Source: Candidatus Auribacter fodinae (GTDB lineage Bacteria > Auribacterota > Auribacteria > Auribacterales > Auribacteraceae). From it: a DNA stretch of 64,000 nt. Location of the stretch: the NCBI GenBank assembly GCA_003599815.1, contig QZJZ01000094.1, positions 1 through 64,000 of the forward strand, read 5' to 3'. The notes under the pieces were generated by a model. The model was not told the DNA's origin and searched no databases. It saw only the letters and a program-made list of their open reading frames with translations. Position 1 is the first letter of the stretch. Each line of letters opens with the position of its first letter. Below, one piece after another: positions 53,387 to 60,878 of the stretch. The translations under genes were made by a program, and so were the position numbers.

Positions 53387-54094
53387 ATGATGACTGAAAA
53401 AATAAAAAAACAAATTATTATACAAGCGACGGGTATTGGGCGTGAGTACCGGATTGGAAAACAGGTTGTGTCCGTACTTAAAAATATTGATCTTACTATA
53501 TATAAACATGATTTTATGACTATTTCAGGCGCATCAGGGGTGGGAAAAAGCACATTGCTCCACATTCTTGGTTTGCTTGATGAGCCAAGTGAAGGAAAAA
53601 TAGCGTTTCAGGGTATAGAAATTCAATCTTTGTCAAACGCTAGAAAAGCGGAAATACGCAATAAGTCTATTGGATTTATTTTTCAGTTTTTTCATCTGTT
53701 GCCGGAATTCAGCGCTATGGAGAATGTATTGCTTCCTGCCCTGATGAGGCGTAATACTACACCGGTGAAAGAACTTAAAGAACGGTCAAAAGCTTTGCTT
53801 GATAAAGTCGGGCTTAGTCACAGAATGAAGCATAAACCCTCTGAATTATCAGGGGGAGAACAGCAAAGAGTTGCTATCGCTCGTGCAATAATGAATAAAC
53901 CGGATGTGATTTTTGCCGATGAACCTACTGGTAACCTTGATAGCAAAGCAAGTCTCGAAATACAAAACCTCCTGTATGAATTGAATGACCAGACGAATCA
54001 AACAATCGTAATTGTGACTCATAATACGGAATTAGCGGCGATTGGCAGACGAAAAATGCATATGAGTGACGGTTCTATCCATGAACTGGAATGA
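53387..54094 (+). CDS. lolD: lipoprotein-releasing ABC transporter ATPase LolD
   Basis: The 235-residue ATPase has Walker [13 protein letters not shown]-loop [18 protein letters not shown], signature [14 protein letters not shown], Walker [13 protein letters not shown] and the H-loop VTHNTELA. The FHLLPEF segment is typical of LolD. It starts 3 bases after the permease stop, so the pair is translated together. An ATG one codon later is an alternative start. Confidence 0.94.
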
Positions 54095-54250
54095 AACTTG
54101 TTTATTCAGATTTGTCTAACATTATGTTGTGGGTAATTTGATTCTGTTTATTACATTGTACCGGGATTCAACACTCGGTGAGATAATAGCTCAACACAGT
54201 ATGTCTAGCCTGTATAGAAAAGTCACAGTTGACACATGAGGATAACTAAA

Positions 54251-54763
54251 ATGGTGTGTGATATTTGCGGTAAGAAGGAAGCGACTGTCCATTATACGGA
54301 GATTGTCCATAACCAGATGATCAAAATGGATATTTGTGAAGATTGTGCTCATGCCAAAGGGGTGGGAATACAGTCACCTTTTTCCATATCTGACTTATTA
54401 TCAGGACTTGCGGAACTGGATTCAGAAGTATCTGCCTATGCTGACCCTGTATGTTCATGTTGCGGTTTGAGCTTCAAGGAATTCCGCAAACGAGGCAGGC
54501 TTGGATGCAGTGAATGCTACGAGACATTTAAAGCTCCTTTGGAATCTTTGCTTCAGACCATTCACAAAAATACCCGGCACAAAGGCAAAAAATTCCGCGA
54601 ACAGCCGGATAAAAATATATCCGATACTGATATGAAAACGAAACTGAAAGAACTGAAAAATGAGCTGAAACAGGCTATTGAGAAAGAAGAATACGAATAC
54701 GCCGCAGATCTTCGTGACAGGATAAAAGATATAGAAAATGCATTGAAAACAGGGAAAAAATAA
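54251..54763 (+). CDS. mcsA: McsA-like UVR/zinc-finger protein
   Basis: McsA activates the protein arginine kinase McsB. The 170-residue protein has four CxxC pairs (VCDICGK, ICEDC, CSCCG, GCSEC) and a C-terminal UVR motif, AIEKEEYEYAADLRDRIKDI. ATG 54251 is favoured over 54236 because GAGGAT lies 8 bases upstream and the protein then begins as usual (MVCDICGK). The 3' end overlaps mcsB by one base. The repressor gene ctsR, normally first in this operon, is absent; no good direct-repeat CtsR operator is seen upstream. Confidence 0.92.
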   Translation: MVCDICGKKEATVHYTEIVHNQMIKMDICEDCAHAKGVGIQSPFSISDLLSGLAELDSEVSAYADPVCSCCGLSFKEFRKRGRLGCSECYETFKAPLESLLQTIHKNTRHKGKKFREQPDKNISDTDMKTKLKELKNELKQAIEKEEYEYAADLRDRIKDIENALKTGKK

Positions 54764-55830
54764 TGGATTTTAACAAAATTTCCGCAACGCAGGCAGAATG
54801 GCTGCTTGGAAAGGGACCGAACAGCGATATCGTGATGAGCTCACGTATTCGCCTTGCCCGTAACCTGAAAGGGGTACCATTCCCGCAACAAAATTCTCCC
54901 GCCAATAATGAGAAAGTCATTGATGTGGTTTTCGATGCGCTCAAGAAAACCAAGTTTTTTAAAAATGGCATTATTGCCAGGATGCAGGACATCCCTGATA
55001 TTGATAAACAAATTCTTTTTGAAACGCATCTTATAAGTAAAGAGCTGATTACACATAATCATGCCAGCGCCATTGCAATCAGCGCGGCTCAGGATTTGGT
55101 TATAATGGTCAATGAAGAAGATCACCTTCGTATACAGGTACTTAAATCAGGATTTAATATAGATGCCTGCTGGGAGTTGATAAATAAAGTCGATAGCGCG
55201 CTTGAAAAAGTGCTTGATTTCGCGTATTCTCCCTCGCTTGGATATCTTACTGCGTGTCCGACCAACGTGGGAACTGGGATGAGGGCATCTGTTATGCTTC
55301 ATTTGCCGGGACTCATGTTGATGGAGCTGATCAATAAGGTAATGCAGGCGGTTATTAAACTTGGGCTTGCTGTACGTGGTTTTTATGGAGAAGGTTCCGA
55401 AGTACTCGGCAACCTTTTTCAAATATCGAATCAGACAACGCTAGGTAAAAGCGAGAAAGAAATAATCGCGAACATCAGCAAGGTTATTGATCTGATGATT
55501 GAGCATGAGCGTAATGCGCGTGCGATGCTCAATAATAAAAGCGCTGAAAAAATTAAAGATACGGTTGGGCGTTCATATGGAATTCTGTGTAATGCCCACA
55601 TTATAAGTTCAAAAGAAACTATCAGCCTTTTATCTGCGCTTCGAATGGGAATGGATATGGGATATATAACCGGTCTGGATACATCGGCTATAAACGAGTT
55701 ATTTATCCAGATTCAGCCTGCGCATTTACAAAAAATTTCCGGTGAACTGCTTGATCCCGGCATGCGCGATGTGCGCCGTGCTCAGCTCATTCGGGAACGA
55801 TTACGGCAAAATAATGATAAACAATCATGA
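54763..55830 (+). CDS. mcsB: protein arginine kinase McsB
   Basis: McsB phosphorylates arginines, marking proteins for ClpC. The 355-residue sequence shows the guanidino-kinase-type SSRIRLARNLKGVPFP near residue 26, the NEEDHLRIQ loop, LTACPTNVGTGMRASVMLHL and the allosteric phospho-arginine motif RDVRRA near the C-terminus. It is cytoplasmic. It starts at the mcsA stop (TAATG) and is followed by clpC after 17 bases. Confidence 0.96.
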   Translation: MDFNKISATQAEWLLGKGPNSDIVMSSRIRLARNLKGVPFPQQNSPANNEKVIDVVFDALKKTKFFKNGIIARMQDIPDIDKQILFETHLISKELITHNHASAIAISAAQDLVIMVNEEDHLRIQVLKSGFNIDACWELINKVDSALEKVLDFAYSPSLGYLTACPTNVGTGMRASVMLHLPGLMLMELINKVMQAVIKLGLAVRGFYGEGSEVLGNLFQISNQTTLGKSEKEIIANISKVIDLMIEHERNARAMLNNKSAEKIKDTVGRSYGILCNAHIISSKETISLLSALRMGMDMGYITGLDTSAINELFIQIQPAHLQKISGELLDPGMRDVRRAQLIRERLRQNNDKQS

Positions 55831-55847
55831 AATAGAGGGGTGAGAAC

Positions 55848-58298
55848 ATGTTTGACAGGTTTACCAACAGAGCAAAGCAGGTGATTATCCTTGCCCGAAA
55901 AGAAGCAGACCGGTTCAATCACAATTACATAGGAACCGAACATTTGCTTCTTGGTTTGATTAAACTGGGGCAGGGTGTCGCGGTAGATGTTTTGCGCTCT
56001 ATGGGGGTTGATTTTGAGACAATCCGCATGGAGGTAGAAAAGGCAGTTGGCACAGGGCCGGAAAACAAGGCGGTCGGCGATGTGCCGTTGACTCTTCGTG
56101 CCAAAAAGGTTATTGAACTGGCTGTCGAAGAGGCGAAAAACCTTAACCATACCTACATTGGTACGGAACACCTTCTGCTTGGTTTGCTTCAGGAAGGTGA
56201 AGGCGTTGCGGCGCGAATTCTTAAAAATCTTGATGTTGACATTGAAAAGGCACGTAACGAAATACGGCGTGAACTGGAATCCGGTCTGGCAAAACCGGTT
56301 GAAGAATCACCGATCAGCGGTACCGGAGAGAAAGCTGACAAAACTCCGGCTTTGACTGCTTTCGGACGCGACCTGACCGAACTCGCTCAGGAAGGGAAAC
56401 TCGATCCGATTATCGGAAGAAAAGACGAAATTGAACGCCTTATTCAGGTGCTATGCAGAAGGCGTAAAAATAATCCGGTTCTCCTTGGCGAGGCTGGTGT
56501 TGGCAAAACCGCTATTGTTGAAGGGCTTGCTCAGGAAATTATCGCGGGTAACGTACCTGAAATTTTGCGTGATAAAAAATTAATCACTCTTGACCTTGCA
56601 TTGATGGTTGCCGGCACGAAATACAGAGGCCAGTTCGAAGAACGTATTAAGGCGGTTATGGATGAGATTCGCAAATCAAAGAACATTCTGTTGTTTATTG
56701 ACGAACTGCATACCATAGTCGGCGCCGGCGCCGCGGAAGGCGCTATTGATGCTTCCAACATATTAAAGCCGGCGTTGTCACGCGGTGAAGTGCAGTGTGT
56801 TGGAGCGACCACACTTGATGAGTACCGCAAATATATTGAAAAAGATGCGGCGCTCGAACGACGTTTTCAAACCATTATGGTTGATGCGCCGAACGTTGAG
56901 GAAACCATCCTGATTTTGCGAGGGTTGCAGAGCAAATACGAAGAACATCACAAAGTGCATTATACTGATGATGCCATTGAAGCGGCTACGACATTATCAG
57001 ACCGCTATATCAGCGGACGGTTCTTACCTGATAAAGCGATAGACCTGATGGACGAAGCCGGCGCCAAAGCCCGCATATCCGCTATGACGGTGCCTGTTGA
57101 CGTGAAAGCTATTGAAAAAGAATGTGATCGCCTGCGGTCACAAAAAGAAGCGGCAATAAAAGAACAGAATTATGAAAAAGCCGCTCAGCTCCGTGACAAA
57201 GAACGCGAAGCGCGCGAACGGCTGGAAAAGGTTGTATCCGGCTGGAAAGAAACGAGAGAAGAATCTGAAGTTGTTGTTAATGCTGAAGATATCGCGCAAA
57301 TTATATCAAAATGGACAGGAGTTCCCGTGTCTACATTGGAGGAGCCTGAAGCGAAACGACTGCTCAGCATGGAAGAAGATGTTCATAAGATCGTTATAGG
57401 GCAGGACGAAGCCGTTAAGGCGGTATCCAGAGCAATCAGGCGTTCACGCGCTGACCTGAAAGACCCGCGCCGTCCGATCGGATCATTTTTGTTTCTTGGC
57501 CCAACCGGCGTTGGAAAAACGTTGCTCGTGAAAGCGCTGGCGAAAGTTATGTTTGCGGATGAAGACGCGGTTATTCAGATTGATATGTCTGAATATATGG
57601 AAAAATTTGCCATATCCCGTTTGACTGGTTCTCCTCCGGGTTACGTCGGGTATGAAGAGGGTGGACAGTTGACCGAACAGGTACGTCGTCGCCCGTACTC
57701 GGTGGTGTTGTTTGACGAAGTCGAAAAAGCGCACCCTGATGTTACGCATATTCTTCTTCAAGTACTCGAAGAGGGTAAACTGACAGATAGTCTCGGGCGT
57801 ACTGTTGATTTTCGTAATACCCTGATTATCATGACTTCAAACGCGGGCGCTGATTTGATTAAGAAAGAAACTACAGTCGGGTTTAAAACAGGTGATAGCC
57901 CTGCTACCGATTATGAAACAATGAAATCGAAAATCGTAGCTGAAGTGAAGAAAATTTTTAAACCGGAATTCCTGAACCGCATTGATGATTTGATCGTATT
58001 TCACGCGCTTTCACGTGATGATATTAAGAAGGTCGTCGAACTTGAACTTGAAAAAGTTCGTAAACGCCTTGAACAGAAAAATATCCACCTGACAGTCGAT
58101 GCAAAAGCGAAAAATTTTCTCTGTGATAACGGCTACGATCAGAAATTTGGCGCGCGACCTTTGAAACGCGCTATTGAGCGGTTTGTGGAAAACCCGATGT
58201 CTGAAGAAATTTTACGCGGCAATATCATTAAGGGGCAGAAGGTTAAAGTGACAGCCACTAAAGATGGGCTGAAGTTTAAACCTGAGGATCCTGAATAA
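55848..58298 (+). CDS. clpC: ATP-dependent Clp protease ATPase subunit ClpC
   Basis: The 816-residue Hsp100 protein has two N-terminal ClpN repeats ([16 protein letters not shown] and [16 protein letters not shown]), the first AAA domain with Walker [11 protein letters not shown], a middle UVR segment ([16 protein letters not shown]), the second AAA domain with GPTGVGKT, and a standard C-terminus. It unfolds phosphoarginine-tagged proteins for ClpP. GAGGGGTGAGAAC precedes the ATG. Confidence 0.97.
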
Positions 58299-58304
58299 AT
58301 TATC

Positions 58305-58333
58305 TTGACAGTATGCGTGGATATATCGTAAAA
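58305..58333 (+). promoter_or_regulatory. candidate promoter for tRNA-Leu
   Basis: A perfect TTGACA is followed after 17 bases by GTAAAA (or after 18 by TAAAAG), 38-60 bases before the mature tRNA start. The -10 box is weak. Confidence 0.4.
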
Positions 58334-58370
58334 GATTATTCGATTTTTCGTGATAACCGCATTTTAGTGT

Positions 58371-58457
58371 GCCGGAGTGGTGAAACTGGTAGACGCAGAG
58401 GACTCAAAATCCTCCGGGGGCAACTCCATGCCGGTTCGATTCCGGCCTCCGGCACCA
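58371..58457 (+). tRNA. tRNA-Leu (anticodon CAA)
   Basis: The acceptor stem GCCGGAG pairs with CTCCGGC, followed by A and an encoded CCA. The anticodon stem GAGGA/TCCTC encloses the loop CTCAAAA, so the anticodon is CAA and it reads UUG. A long variable arm (class II) is present, as expected for leucine, and the T-arm is GCCGG TTCGATT CCGGC. It lies between clpC and the branched-chain synthesis genes. Leu-tRNA itself would feed into the Val/Leu-sensing leader just downstream. Confidence 0.97.
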
Positions 58458-58512
58458 ATTTTAAAATGGATGTTTCAAACTATTGCATTTAAGAGTGATA
58501 GTTAAAAAGATA

Positions 58513-58540
58513 TTGACTTTTTTTGATTATGCGATAGAAT
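58513..58540 (+). promoter_or_regulatory. sigma-70 promoter for the ilvBN leader
   Basis: TTGACT and TAGAAT are spaced by 16 bases. Transcription would start near 58547, just before the leader peptide's AAAGGTG ribosome binding site. Confidence 0.7.
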
Positions 58541-58565
58541 GAAAAAAATTAAAGGTGTGAAAACT

Positions 58566-58661
58566 ATGGATTTACGCACAAACTACCTCAATTTTTTGGT
58601 TTCCCTTGTCGCAGTAGTAGCTGTGGTAGTAGTGGTGCGTGTAGTCCGGTTTTCACCGTGA
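58566..58661 (+). CDS. valine-rich leader peptide of the ilvBN attenuator
   Basis: A 31-codon frame too short for the ORF track starts at ATG 58566, with AAAGGTG 8 bases upstream. It contains VSLVAVVAVVVVVRVVRF: 11 valines and 4 leucines among 31 residues, in an upstream position to an acetolactate synthase operon. This is the hallmark of a branched-chain amino-acid attenuator, in the style of the E. coli ilvB leader, though the sequence need not be homologous. When Val-tRNA is scarce the ribosome would stall and the terminator at 58685 would not form. Confidence 0.9.
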   Translation: MDLRTNYLNFLVSLVAVVAVVVVVRVVRFSP

Positions 58662-58669
58662 GGGTAACC
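58648..58669 (+). promoter_or_regulatory. small hairpin spanning the leader stop codon
   Basis: GGTT (58648-58651) can pair with AACC (58666-58669), and TCAC with the following GTGA region, closing a hairpin over the TGA stop. The CACC in it could also pair with GGTGA at 58693-58697 in the terminator arm, which gives a possible antiterminator. Pairing is short and unmeasured. Confidence 0.45.
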
Positions 58670-58684
58670 TGATAGAGATTTCAG

Positions 58685-58722
58685 CCCCTGCTGGTGAGCG
58701 AAGCCGGCAGGGGTTTTTTTTT
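58685..58722 (+). terminator. attenuator terminator upstream of ilvB
   Basis: CCCCTGCTGG and CCGGCAGGGG form a 10-bp GC-rich stem with one U-G pair and a 9-base loop, followed by nine Ts. It lies 23 bases after the leader peptide stop and 185 bases before ilvB. The rest of the leader up to 58907 also has CCAACC and GGTTGG arms near 58741-58768, role unknown. Confidence 0.9.
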
Positions 58723-58907
58723 GTCCTGAATACGTGCTTCGCCAACCGGCTGGCCAACAGAAGGTTGGTTAGTAGTAATGAAATGCGCTGGATGCATTAT
58801 AGAGCAAAGAAAAATTGTGGCGCAGAGCATGCCGCCATAGGGAACTTATTTAAGTGACGGATATTAATTTTTGTACTGGAACAATAACATAGCATGGAGA
58901 AAAAACA

Positions 58908-60581
58908 ATGAAAATGAATGGAGCGGAAATCACGATCTCTTTCCTTGAGTCTCGGGGAATAGAGTGTATTGCCGGTATACCCGGTGGGGCGAATTTGCCT
59001 TTGTATGATGCACTGCATAAGAGTTCAATCAGGCATATTCTGGCTCGTCATGAACAGGGGGCTGGTTTTATTGCGCAAGGTATGGCGCGATCTACGGGTA
59101 AACCCGCTGTTTGTTTCGCGACCTCCGGGCCTGGAGCAACTAACCTTATCACAGCTATTGCTGATGCTAAACTGGATTCTATACCGGTTATTGGTATCAC
59201 CGGACAGGTTCCCACTTCCCTGATAGGTACTGATGCGTTTCAGGAAGTTGATACCTATGGTATGACATTACCCATAACAAAACATAATTTTCTGGTTCGA
59301 TCAGCAGAAGAGTTGATTACAGTGTTACCTGAGGCGTTTCGTATTGCGGCGTCCGGACGTCCTGGCCCGGTTATAGTTGACATACCGAAAAATGTTCAGT
59401 GTGAGCACATTGAATTTGCAGGATGGCAGAAAGAAAAAACGAAACCAGCGGCTGAACATAAGATAAATGATCTTCCTGAAGCAGATATAAAACACATAGC
59501 GGAAATGATCAATAAATCAAAGAAGCCTGTTTTATATGTTGGCGGCGGTATCATCCATTCCGATGCGGAATCGGTTCTGATTGATCTGGCGCGGCGTAGT
59601 TCGATACCGGTTGCAACAACATTGATGGGACTTGGATGTTTTCCCGCTGATGACCCTTTGTATATCGGAATGCTTGGAATGCATGGCGCACGATATACAA
59701 ATTATATTTTGAGCGAAGCGGATCTGCTATTGGCTTTTGGTGTCCGATTTGATGACCGAGCTACAGGTAAAGTTGAGGAATTTTGTCCGAATGCTTCGAT
59801 CATTCATATAGATATTGACCGTTCGGAAATAGATAAGATAAAGAAGTCCAATATAGCTCTTGAAAGTGACATAGCCGACGCTATGACAGCAATGCTACCG
59901 CATATCAAAAATAACGCACGTGAAGCATGGATAGCGCGTGTAGAGCAGTTGCGAGATGAGTATGGTTTTAAAATGCCGTTCTCAGCTGACCCATTGAATC
60001 CTTTAAATCTCGTTAAGCATATTGCCGAACTATCACCAAAAAATTCCATTATAACAACCGATGTCGGCCAACACCAGATGTGGGTGGCACAGATATACCC
60101 GTTCAGTTTACCGCGCACTTTGTTAACTTCAGGCGGGCTTGGCACTATGGGATTCGGCTTGCCTGCCGCTATCGGAGCCGCTCTCGCAAATCCTGATAAG
60201 CGGGTGGTCTGCGTGAGTGGCGATGGTTCGTTTCTGATGAATATACAGGAACTGGCTACTCTGGCTGATTTAGGGCTTAATGTTACGGTAATAATCATGA
60301 ATAATGGGCATCTGGGCTTGGTACGCCAGCAACAGGAACTGTTTTATAAGGAAAACTATATTGCCTCGCGATTTCAGTCGAACCCTGACTTTGCTGCGAT
60401 CAGTAGAAACTTTGGCATTCGCAGTTATGATCTGGGCGATGAATCCGAACCGCTGGCGGCATTGGGCTCTGCTTTGTGTGTGGAAGGCCCTTGTGTGGTT
60501 AACGCGCCGATTCACTTCGCTGAGAATGTTCTGCCGATGGTCCCGCCGGGTAAAGCTAATCATGAAATGATAGGAGGGTAA
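58908..60581 (+). CDS. ilvB: acetolactate synthase large subunit
   Basis: IlvB makes acetolactate or acetohydroxybutyrate, the first committed step to valine, leucine and isoleucine. The 557-residue protein has RHEQGAGFIAQGMARSTG, the TSGPGATNL segment, the FAD-related region, and the thiamine-diphosphate motif SGDGSFLMNIQEL...NN. The sequence GTDAFQEVDTYGMT and the following ilvN gene mark it as the anabolic, regulated form. ATG 58908 has GGAG 9 bases upstream. It is controlled by the leader and terminator just before it. Confidence 0.97.
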   Translation: MKMNGAEITISFLESRGIECIAGIPGGANLPLYDALHKSSIRHILARHEQGAGFIAQGMARSTGKPAVCFATSGPGATNLITAIADAKLDSIPVIGITGQVPTSLIGTDAFQEVDTYGMTLPITKHNFLVRSAEELITVLPEAFRIAASGRPGPVIVDIPKNVQCEHIEFAGWQKEKTKPAAEHKINDLPEADIKHIAEMINKSKKPVLYVGGGIIHSDAESVLIDLARRSSIPVATTLMGLGCFPADDPLYIGMLGMHGARYTNYILSEADLLLAFGVRFDDRATGKVEEFCPNASIIHIDIDRSEIDKIKKSNIALESDIADAMTAMLPHIKNNAREAWIARVEQLRDEYGFKMPFSADPLNPLNLVKHIAELSPKNSIITTDVGQHQMWVAQIYPFSLPRTLLTSGGLGTMGFGLPAAIGAALANPDKRVVCVSGDGSFLMNIQELATLADLGLNVTVIIMNNGHLGLVRQQQELFYKENYIASRFQSNPDFAAISRNFGIRSYDLGDESEPLAALGSALCVEGPCVVNAPIHFAENVLPMVPPGKANHEMIGG

Positions 60582-60584
60582 TCG

Positions 60585-60878
60585 ATGACTACCATTACAC
60601 ATAGAATTATTGAGTTAACGGTGAATAATCATCCGGGTGTTATGTCGCACGTAACAGGTTTGTTTTCACGCAGGGGGTTTAATCTTGAAGGCATATTGTG
60701 TTCGCCAATCGGTGACGGTGCTAGAAGCCGGATGTACTTGCTTGTGAAAAGAGAAGAACGTATCGACCAGATCACAAAACAACTGGAAAAATTATATGAT
60801 GTGGAAAATGTCTCACTTCGCGATGACTACGACCATACTCTGTTTGATCGCTTGCACGACCTTGTAAAAGGCATTTAG
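60585..60878 (+). CDS. ilvN: acetolactate synthase small regulatory subunit
   Basis: The 97-residue protein starts RIIELTVNNHPGVMSHVTGL and SRRGFNLEGILCSPIGDG, a typical ACT domain of IlvN/IlvH that gives valine feedback control. It is short: the second C-terminal domain of longer IlvH forms is absent, as in IlvN of E. coli. AGGAGGG precedes its ATG, 3 bases after ilvB. ilvC is not adjacent; a minus-strand gene follows. Confidence 0.95.
   Translation: MTTITHRIIELTVNNHPGVMSHVTGLFSRRGFNLEGILCSPIGDGARSRMYLLVKREERIDQITKQLEKLYDVENVSLRDDYDHTLFDRLHDLVKGI

Follow-up and report, generated by a model that had tools for sequence, protein, structure and literature searches.

A probable ribosome-mediated valine attenuator, homologous to enterobacterial ivbL–ilvBN, upstream of an AHAS I operon that was probably acquired horizontally

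Attenuation of ilvBN is established in Escherichia coli (PMC1183508). Leader peptides of ilv operons have also been described in Actinobacteria (PMC1262725) and in Firmicutes (PMC5794164, PMC5864092); in Streptomyces, codon changes in the leader were reportedly without effect (PMC1262725). In 2010 leader-peptide systems were stated to be known in Proteobacteria and Actinobacteria only, and transfer was weighed against convergence as the cause of their spread (PMC2965389). AHAS I itself has been thought to be confined to gammaproteobacteria, except for Desulfovibrio and one firmicute (PMC5727371). The window, which is the whole 64 kb stretch of DNA that was analysed, contains an AHAS I ilvBN operon in a different phylum. 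Our analysis makes it very probable that this operon is preceded by a classical 1:2:3:4 ribosome-mediated valine attenuator that is homologous to that of enterobacterial ivbL–ilvBN, operon and attenuator probably having been acquired horizontally. The features of the locus are as follows.

58371–58457, + strand: tRNA-Leu(CAA), left boundary of the apparently inserted stretch (gene order kept in two same-family genomes)
58513–58540, + strand: putative sigma-70-type promoter, TTGACT-16-TAGAAT (sequence and consensus scan)
58549–58556, + strand: Shine–Dalgarno sequence of the leader peptide, TTAAAGGT (sequence)
58566–58661, + strand: leader peptide open reading frame, MDLRTNYLNFLVSLVAVVAVVVVVRVVRFSP followed by the stop (sequence; resembles E. 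coli IvbL)
58598–58606, + strand: segment 1, GGTTTCCCT (found by eye and partly in the fold of 58580–58682)
58653–58671, + strand: segment 2, TCACCGTGAGGGTAACCTG (stalled-ribosome fold; compensatory pair changes versus relatives)
58683–58695, + strand: segment 3, the 5' arm of the terminator, AGCCCCTGCTGGT (hairpin detection and folding)
58703–58715, + strand: segment 4, the 3' arm of the terminator, GCCGGCAGGGGTT (hairpin detection and folding)
58714–58722, + strand: nine-T tract of the intrinsic terminator (sequence)
58647–58724, + strand: segments 2–4 and the T tract as a single homologous RNA element (covariance-model match)
58908–60581, + strand: ilvB, acetolactate synthase large subunit of the AHAS I type (NF006016/PRK08155; AHAS I clade)
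60585–60878, + strand: ilvN, AHAS I small subunit (best family NF006036/PRK08178)

An earlier note on this DNA had listed a promoter, a ribosome-binding site, a valine-rich peptide and a GC-rich hairpin with nine Ts, and on direct reading all of these are present. TTGACT (58513–58518) and TAGAAT (58535–58540) are separated by 16 bp and agree with the consensus at ten of 12 positions. This is the sole promoter-like match in 58200–59200, where 1.8 are expected by chance; since similar matches are so common, the putative promoter on its own is weak evidence. The sequence AAAGG lies about 10 nt 5' of the leader ATG at 58566, and the frame that follows, 31 codons with 11 Val and four Leu up to the TGA stop at 58659–58661, is predicted to be a translatable leader in which codons for the product of the pathway occur in a run. 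The hairpin 58683–58715 has a 13 bp GC-rich stem with a folding energy of −24.4 kcal/mol, and together with the T tract it constitutes a predicted intrinsic terminator between the leader and the first structural gene. The small hairpin that the note placed over the stop codon exists as a weak CGG/CCG stem-loop, but folding identifies the functional element at this position as segment 2 of the antiterminator. Segment 1 could pair with 58661–58669 at eight of nine positions and is a candidate for one strand of a pause or anti-antiterminator hairpin. The distance from the start of the terminator to ilvB is 225 bp, compared with 48–151 bp in relatives, and this long stretch could contain another promoter. 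It also holds an inverted repeat, CCAACC...GGTTGG at 58742–58768, possibly a further regulatory site.

The alternative folds were computed with a ribosome modelled at different positions. When it is placed on the median Val codon, 58638–58698 is free and folds at −17.6 kcal/mol. TCACC (58653–58657) pairs with GGTGA (58693–58697), GAGG of segment 2 pairs with 58686–58689 within CCCCT, and CTG at the 3' end of segment 2 pairs with CAG just 5' of segment 3, with ten of the 13 nt of the terminator 5' arm being occupied. When the ribosome is placed at the stop codon instead, segment 2 is covered and the terminator is the one structure left (−24.9 kcal/mol). The E. coli leader (L035) behaves in the same way in the same test (−19.5 versus 0.0). 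In these models stalling thus frees the antiterminator, and a ribosome that has reached the stop prevents it from forming. By itself the window antiterminator is unexceptional, as 145 of 1000 shuffled sequences fold equally well, and its support comes from the family and not from the window alone.

These folds suggest how the switch would operate. With ample Val-tRNA, the ribosome would reach the TGA at 58659 and cover segment 2, segments 3 and 4 would form the terminator and RNA polymerase would halt near 58722. With scarce Val-tRNA, the ribosome would stall at the first Val codons (12–18), masking segment 1; segment 2 would be left free to pair with segment 3 as a 2:3 antiterminator and transcription would continue into ilvBN. 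We infer the position of the stall, and with it the masking of segment 1 and freeing of segment 2, from footprint arithmetic in which a ribosome extends about 15 nt to the 5' side and 12 nt to the 3' side of its P site. Leucine is perhaps sensed alongside valine.

The genes downstream are of the AHAS I type, with the element directly upstream of them, although their family scores lie slightly under the cut-offs: IlvB scores 859.9 bits with its best family NF006016/PRK08155, 10 bits below the cut-off of 870, and IlvN scores 115.7 bits with NF006036 against a cut-off of 128. Trees place IlvB within the AHAS I clade, distant from the ilvB genes of the family to which the genome belongs. Two further ilvB genes are present in this genome, at 43–47% identity, and no leader or terminator was found upstream of either. 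An Rfam scan of the window at the gathering score gave no T-box and no leader family, the tRNA being the only match.

We examined 25 AHAS I operons: those of the window and Fusibacter, and others from enterobacteria, Azospira, Accumulibacter, other proteobacterial MAGs and two further small phyla. In 24 of them, the window counted, a leader that is rich in Val, or in a few cases in Val and Leu, is followed by a GC-rich terminator. These 24 span beta- and gammaproteobacteria and three small phyla. Leaders like that of the window are those of E. coli IvbL and 22 further AHAS I operons, and the majority of AHAS I leaders end in Pro-stop. In Azospira (L034 3671–3890) the conserved leader stop TAG reads CAG and the frame extends to about 50 codons, with segment 2 kept. 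The sole exception among the 25 is Fusibacter paucivorans (Bacillota), which has a T-box (136.7 bits; L031 3682–3906). Its IlvB is the sister of the window IlvB, with support of 98/94 and 90/84 in two trees, and the same genes can therefore carry either of two sensing systems. Between the Fusibacter and window operons, one sensing system has been exchanged for the other.

Covariance models were built from 16 relatives with the window left out. The window element scores 34.2 bits with the terminator-structure model (E = 1.6e-6; next best in the 64 kb 13.7 bits) and 36.9 bits with the antiterminator-structure model (E = 2.4e-10; next best 8.4 bits), where the E-values are rough and part of the score stems from a generic GC-rich terminator with Ts. 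The segment 2–4 RNA is thus recognized as homologous by models that do not contain it. As controls, the terminators of ilvG-type attenuators reach at most 15.4 bits with the AHAS I model, and AHAS I members omitted from the model score 36–69 bits. In the relatives segment 2 starts with GCGCC, which pairs with GGCGC at the tip of the terminator 5' arm and past it. The window has UCACC and GGUGA instead, which amounts to two compensatory changes, G–C to U–A and G–C to A–U; one relative (G096, L146) has the intermediate G–U at one of these two pairs. Since MAFFT misplaced the GGG of segment 2, the count was restricted to the five outer pairs of the antiterminator. These five form in 96.9% of cells (13 sequences), and the observed covariation is reached by one of 500 shuffles and is lost when the partners are slid. 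Anatomy, modelled-ribosome folding, conservation across phyla and covariation together lend good support to the proposal, made in the earlier note, that ilvBN would be controlled by ribosome-mediated attenuation.

Could the attenuator have arisen independently in front of the AHAS I operon in this lineage, with the same working? Leader peptides elsewhere may originate repeatedly (PMC2965389), Val-rich leaders are likewise seen before ilvB genes of other than the AHAS I type in Bacteroidota, Fibrobacterota, Myxococcota and Spirochaetota, and the sister IlvB in Fusibacter comes with a T-box. We nevertheless consider such convergence unlikely: the RNA 3' of the Val run aligns with that of the AHAS I relatives, and the models made without the window score the element far over background, unlike the ilvG-type attenuators. 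With the same model, scores of 25–32 bits are reached by the elements upstream of non-AHAS-I ilvB in Fibrobacterota, Bacteroidota and Myxococcota, for which a wider relation or convergence is possible.

At these non-AHAS-I loci, Val-rich leaders with GC-rich hairpins are seen in Bacteroidota (Breznakibacter), Fibrobacterota, Spirochaetota (Treponema) and Myxococcota (loci L098 3640–3940, L070 3810–3940, L042 3752–3895 and L050 3792–3930), the hairpin of L050 being without a T tract. Their stalled-ribosome antiterminators are strong (z from −2.5 to −4.6), and in Breznakibacter a second Val-rich frame lies just 5' of the first.

The distribution of AHAS I is patchy. Among 44 genomes of the phylum of the window it occurs in one, namely this one (E ≤ 1e-170). 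Two other small phyla also have it, that of G055 in eight of 40 genomes and that of G058 in two of three. Two same-family genomes keep the order lolD–mcsA–mcsB–clpC–tRNA-Leu(CAA), with no ilvBN after the tRNA; other genes or noncoding DNA are found 3' of it. On the left flank ClpC is 86 and 83% identical to its counterparts in these two genomes, and on the far flank a flotillin-like protein is 76% identical to that of one of them. Assembly contamination as the source of ilvBN is ruled out, as both flanks match the family; because both belong to the lineage, the contig is genuine and the operon was seemingly inserted beside the tRNA gene. No duplicated tRNA 3' end resembling an att scar was found within the window. 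The composition of ilvBN is not foreign, GC and GC3 being equal to those of the host, and the transfer is therefore old rather than recent. It is thus probable from the gene content and gene order that ilvBN was acquired horizontally, next to tRNA-Leu(CAA); loss from all relatives instead of transfer would be the less economical alternative. Since AHAS I is absent elsewhere in the phylum and the same operon with its attenuator is present in other phyla, operon and switch most likely travelled together. Within the flank, the mcsA–mcsB–clpC genes (protein arginine kinase system) lie directly 3' of lolD at 53387–58298, and lolD indicates that the genome has an outer-membrane lipoprotein export system.

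Alternatively, the leader and terminator could be non-regulating relics carried along with the operon, with transcription starting in the 185 nt between terminator and ilvB. The distance from terminator to ilvB, longer than in the relatives, and the only moderate stability of the window antiterminator relative to shuffles would fit this idea. We judge it quite improbable, given that the two compensatory changes keep the pairing between segments 2 and 3, that neither the Val run nor the T tract has decayed and that the nucleotide composition is fully adapted to the host, which together imply that the element was kept through long drift.

The Val-rich frame is also singular within the window. 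It has nine Val within 12 codons and is the sole frame with six or more among frames of up to 60 codons on both strands of the 64 kb, and the folding of the whole leader has z = −5.6. Other attenuators were sought genome-wide with a Val-run pattern and the RNA covariance model. The pattern of about five consecutive Val codons gives ten matches in the 3.5 Mb genome, and among the open frames at these matches the window frame alone is leader-like. A second, weak match to the RNA model in the same genome (C10:14912–14988, 26.7 bits) was rejected, as its neighbour is a pilin-like gene and no amino-acid run precedes it. Weak matches in five relatives have no leader peptides nearby and look like plain terminators. 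A chance Val-rich frame followed by the ordinary terminator of the upstream tRNA-Leu transcript, the hairpin being 226 bp 3' of the tRNA gene, is hardly credible when no frame with eight or more Val per 12 codons occurs in 40 dinucleotide-shuffled windows and the same order of frame and terminator precedes AHAS I operons of other phyla.

We return to the reading of a valine attenuator that shares its ancestry with enterobacterial ivbL–ilvBN. The gene tree, the empty site and the RNA homology point to joint transfer of the genes and their switch. This bears on the open question of whether peptide attenuators pass from phylum to phylum or evolve afresh each time (PMC2965389) and on the view of AHAS I as essentially gammaproteobacterial (PMC5727371). 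Because it requires only ribosome, RNA polymerase and charged tRNA, the attenuator is an obvious candidate for a mode of regulation carried along with an operon. We lean, by a little, towards the broader view in which AHAS I ilvBN and its attenuator form a portable unit that regulates itself, has passed between phyla and works in each of its hosts with no host-specific factor, enterobacterial ilvBN, proposed to be a gammaproteobacterial duplication, being one nested branch of a larger mobile family. In the tree the enterobacteria form a branch within other proteobacteria that adjoins the phylum of G058; the tree is midpoint-rooted within the wider AHAS set, which makes any direction of transfer read from it tentative. 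The surprise that had been expressed at such a device outside the proteobacteria is lessened, as the genes are of the enterobacterial AHAS I type, which is otherwise missing from the phylum, and at least two other small phyla have this operon together with its attenuator. The device is of a known kind, and what is new is the joint spread of operon and attenuator across phyla; the surveys of Vitreschak 2004 and Lopatovskaya 2010, cited in PMC1262725 and PMC4833913, may list further phyla.

Among described systems, the Fusibacter T-box (RF00230) likewise attenuates transcription, before the AHAS I operon of the nearest IlvB relative, but senses uncharged tRNA directly and involves no peptide. 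The leader of ilvBNC in Corynebacterium and other Actinobacteria is by description similar, with a peptide that contains branched-chain codons and a terminator before ilvB (PMC1262725, PMC11857589), but belongs to a different operon, ilvBNC. The ilvG-type (AHAS II) attenuators of gammaproteobacteria likewise act on branched-chain synthesis through a leader peptide, one with Ile/Val/Leu runs; they differ in the type of AHAS, in their mixed Ile–Val–Leu leaders and in their low scores with the AHAS I model. Enterobacterial ivbL–ilvBN, as in E. coli, differs in its phylum, its neighbouring genes, the distance from the end of the terminator to ilvB (about 50 nt, versus 185 nt in the window) and the antiterminator pairing (GCGCC/GGCGC, versus UCACC/GGUGA). 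It shares with the window the AHAS I operon, a Val-rich leader that is about 32 codons long and closes with Pro-stop, a segment 2 over the stop, a GC-rich terminator with a T tract and the same alternative folds.
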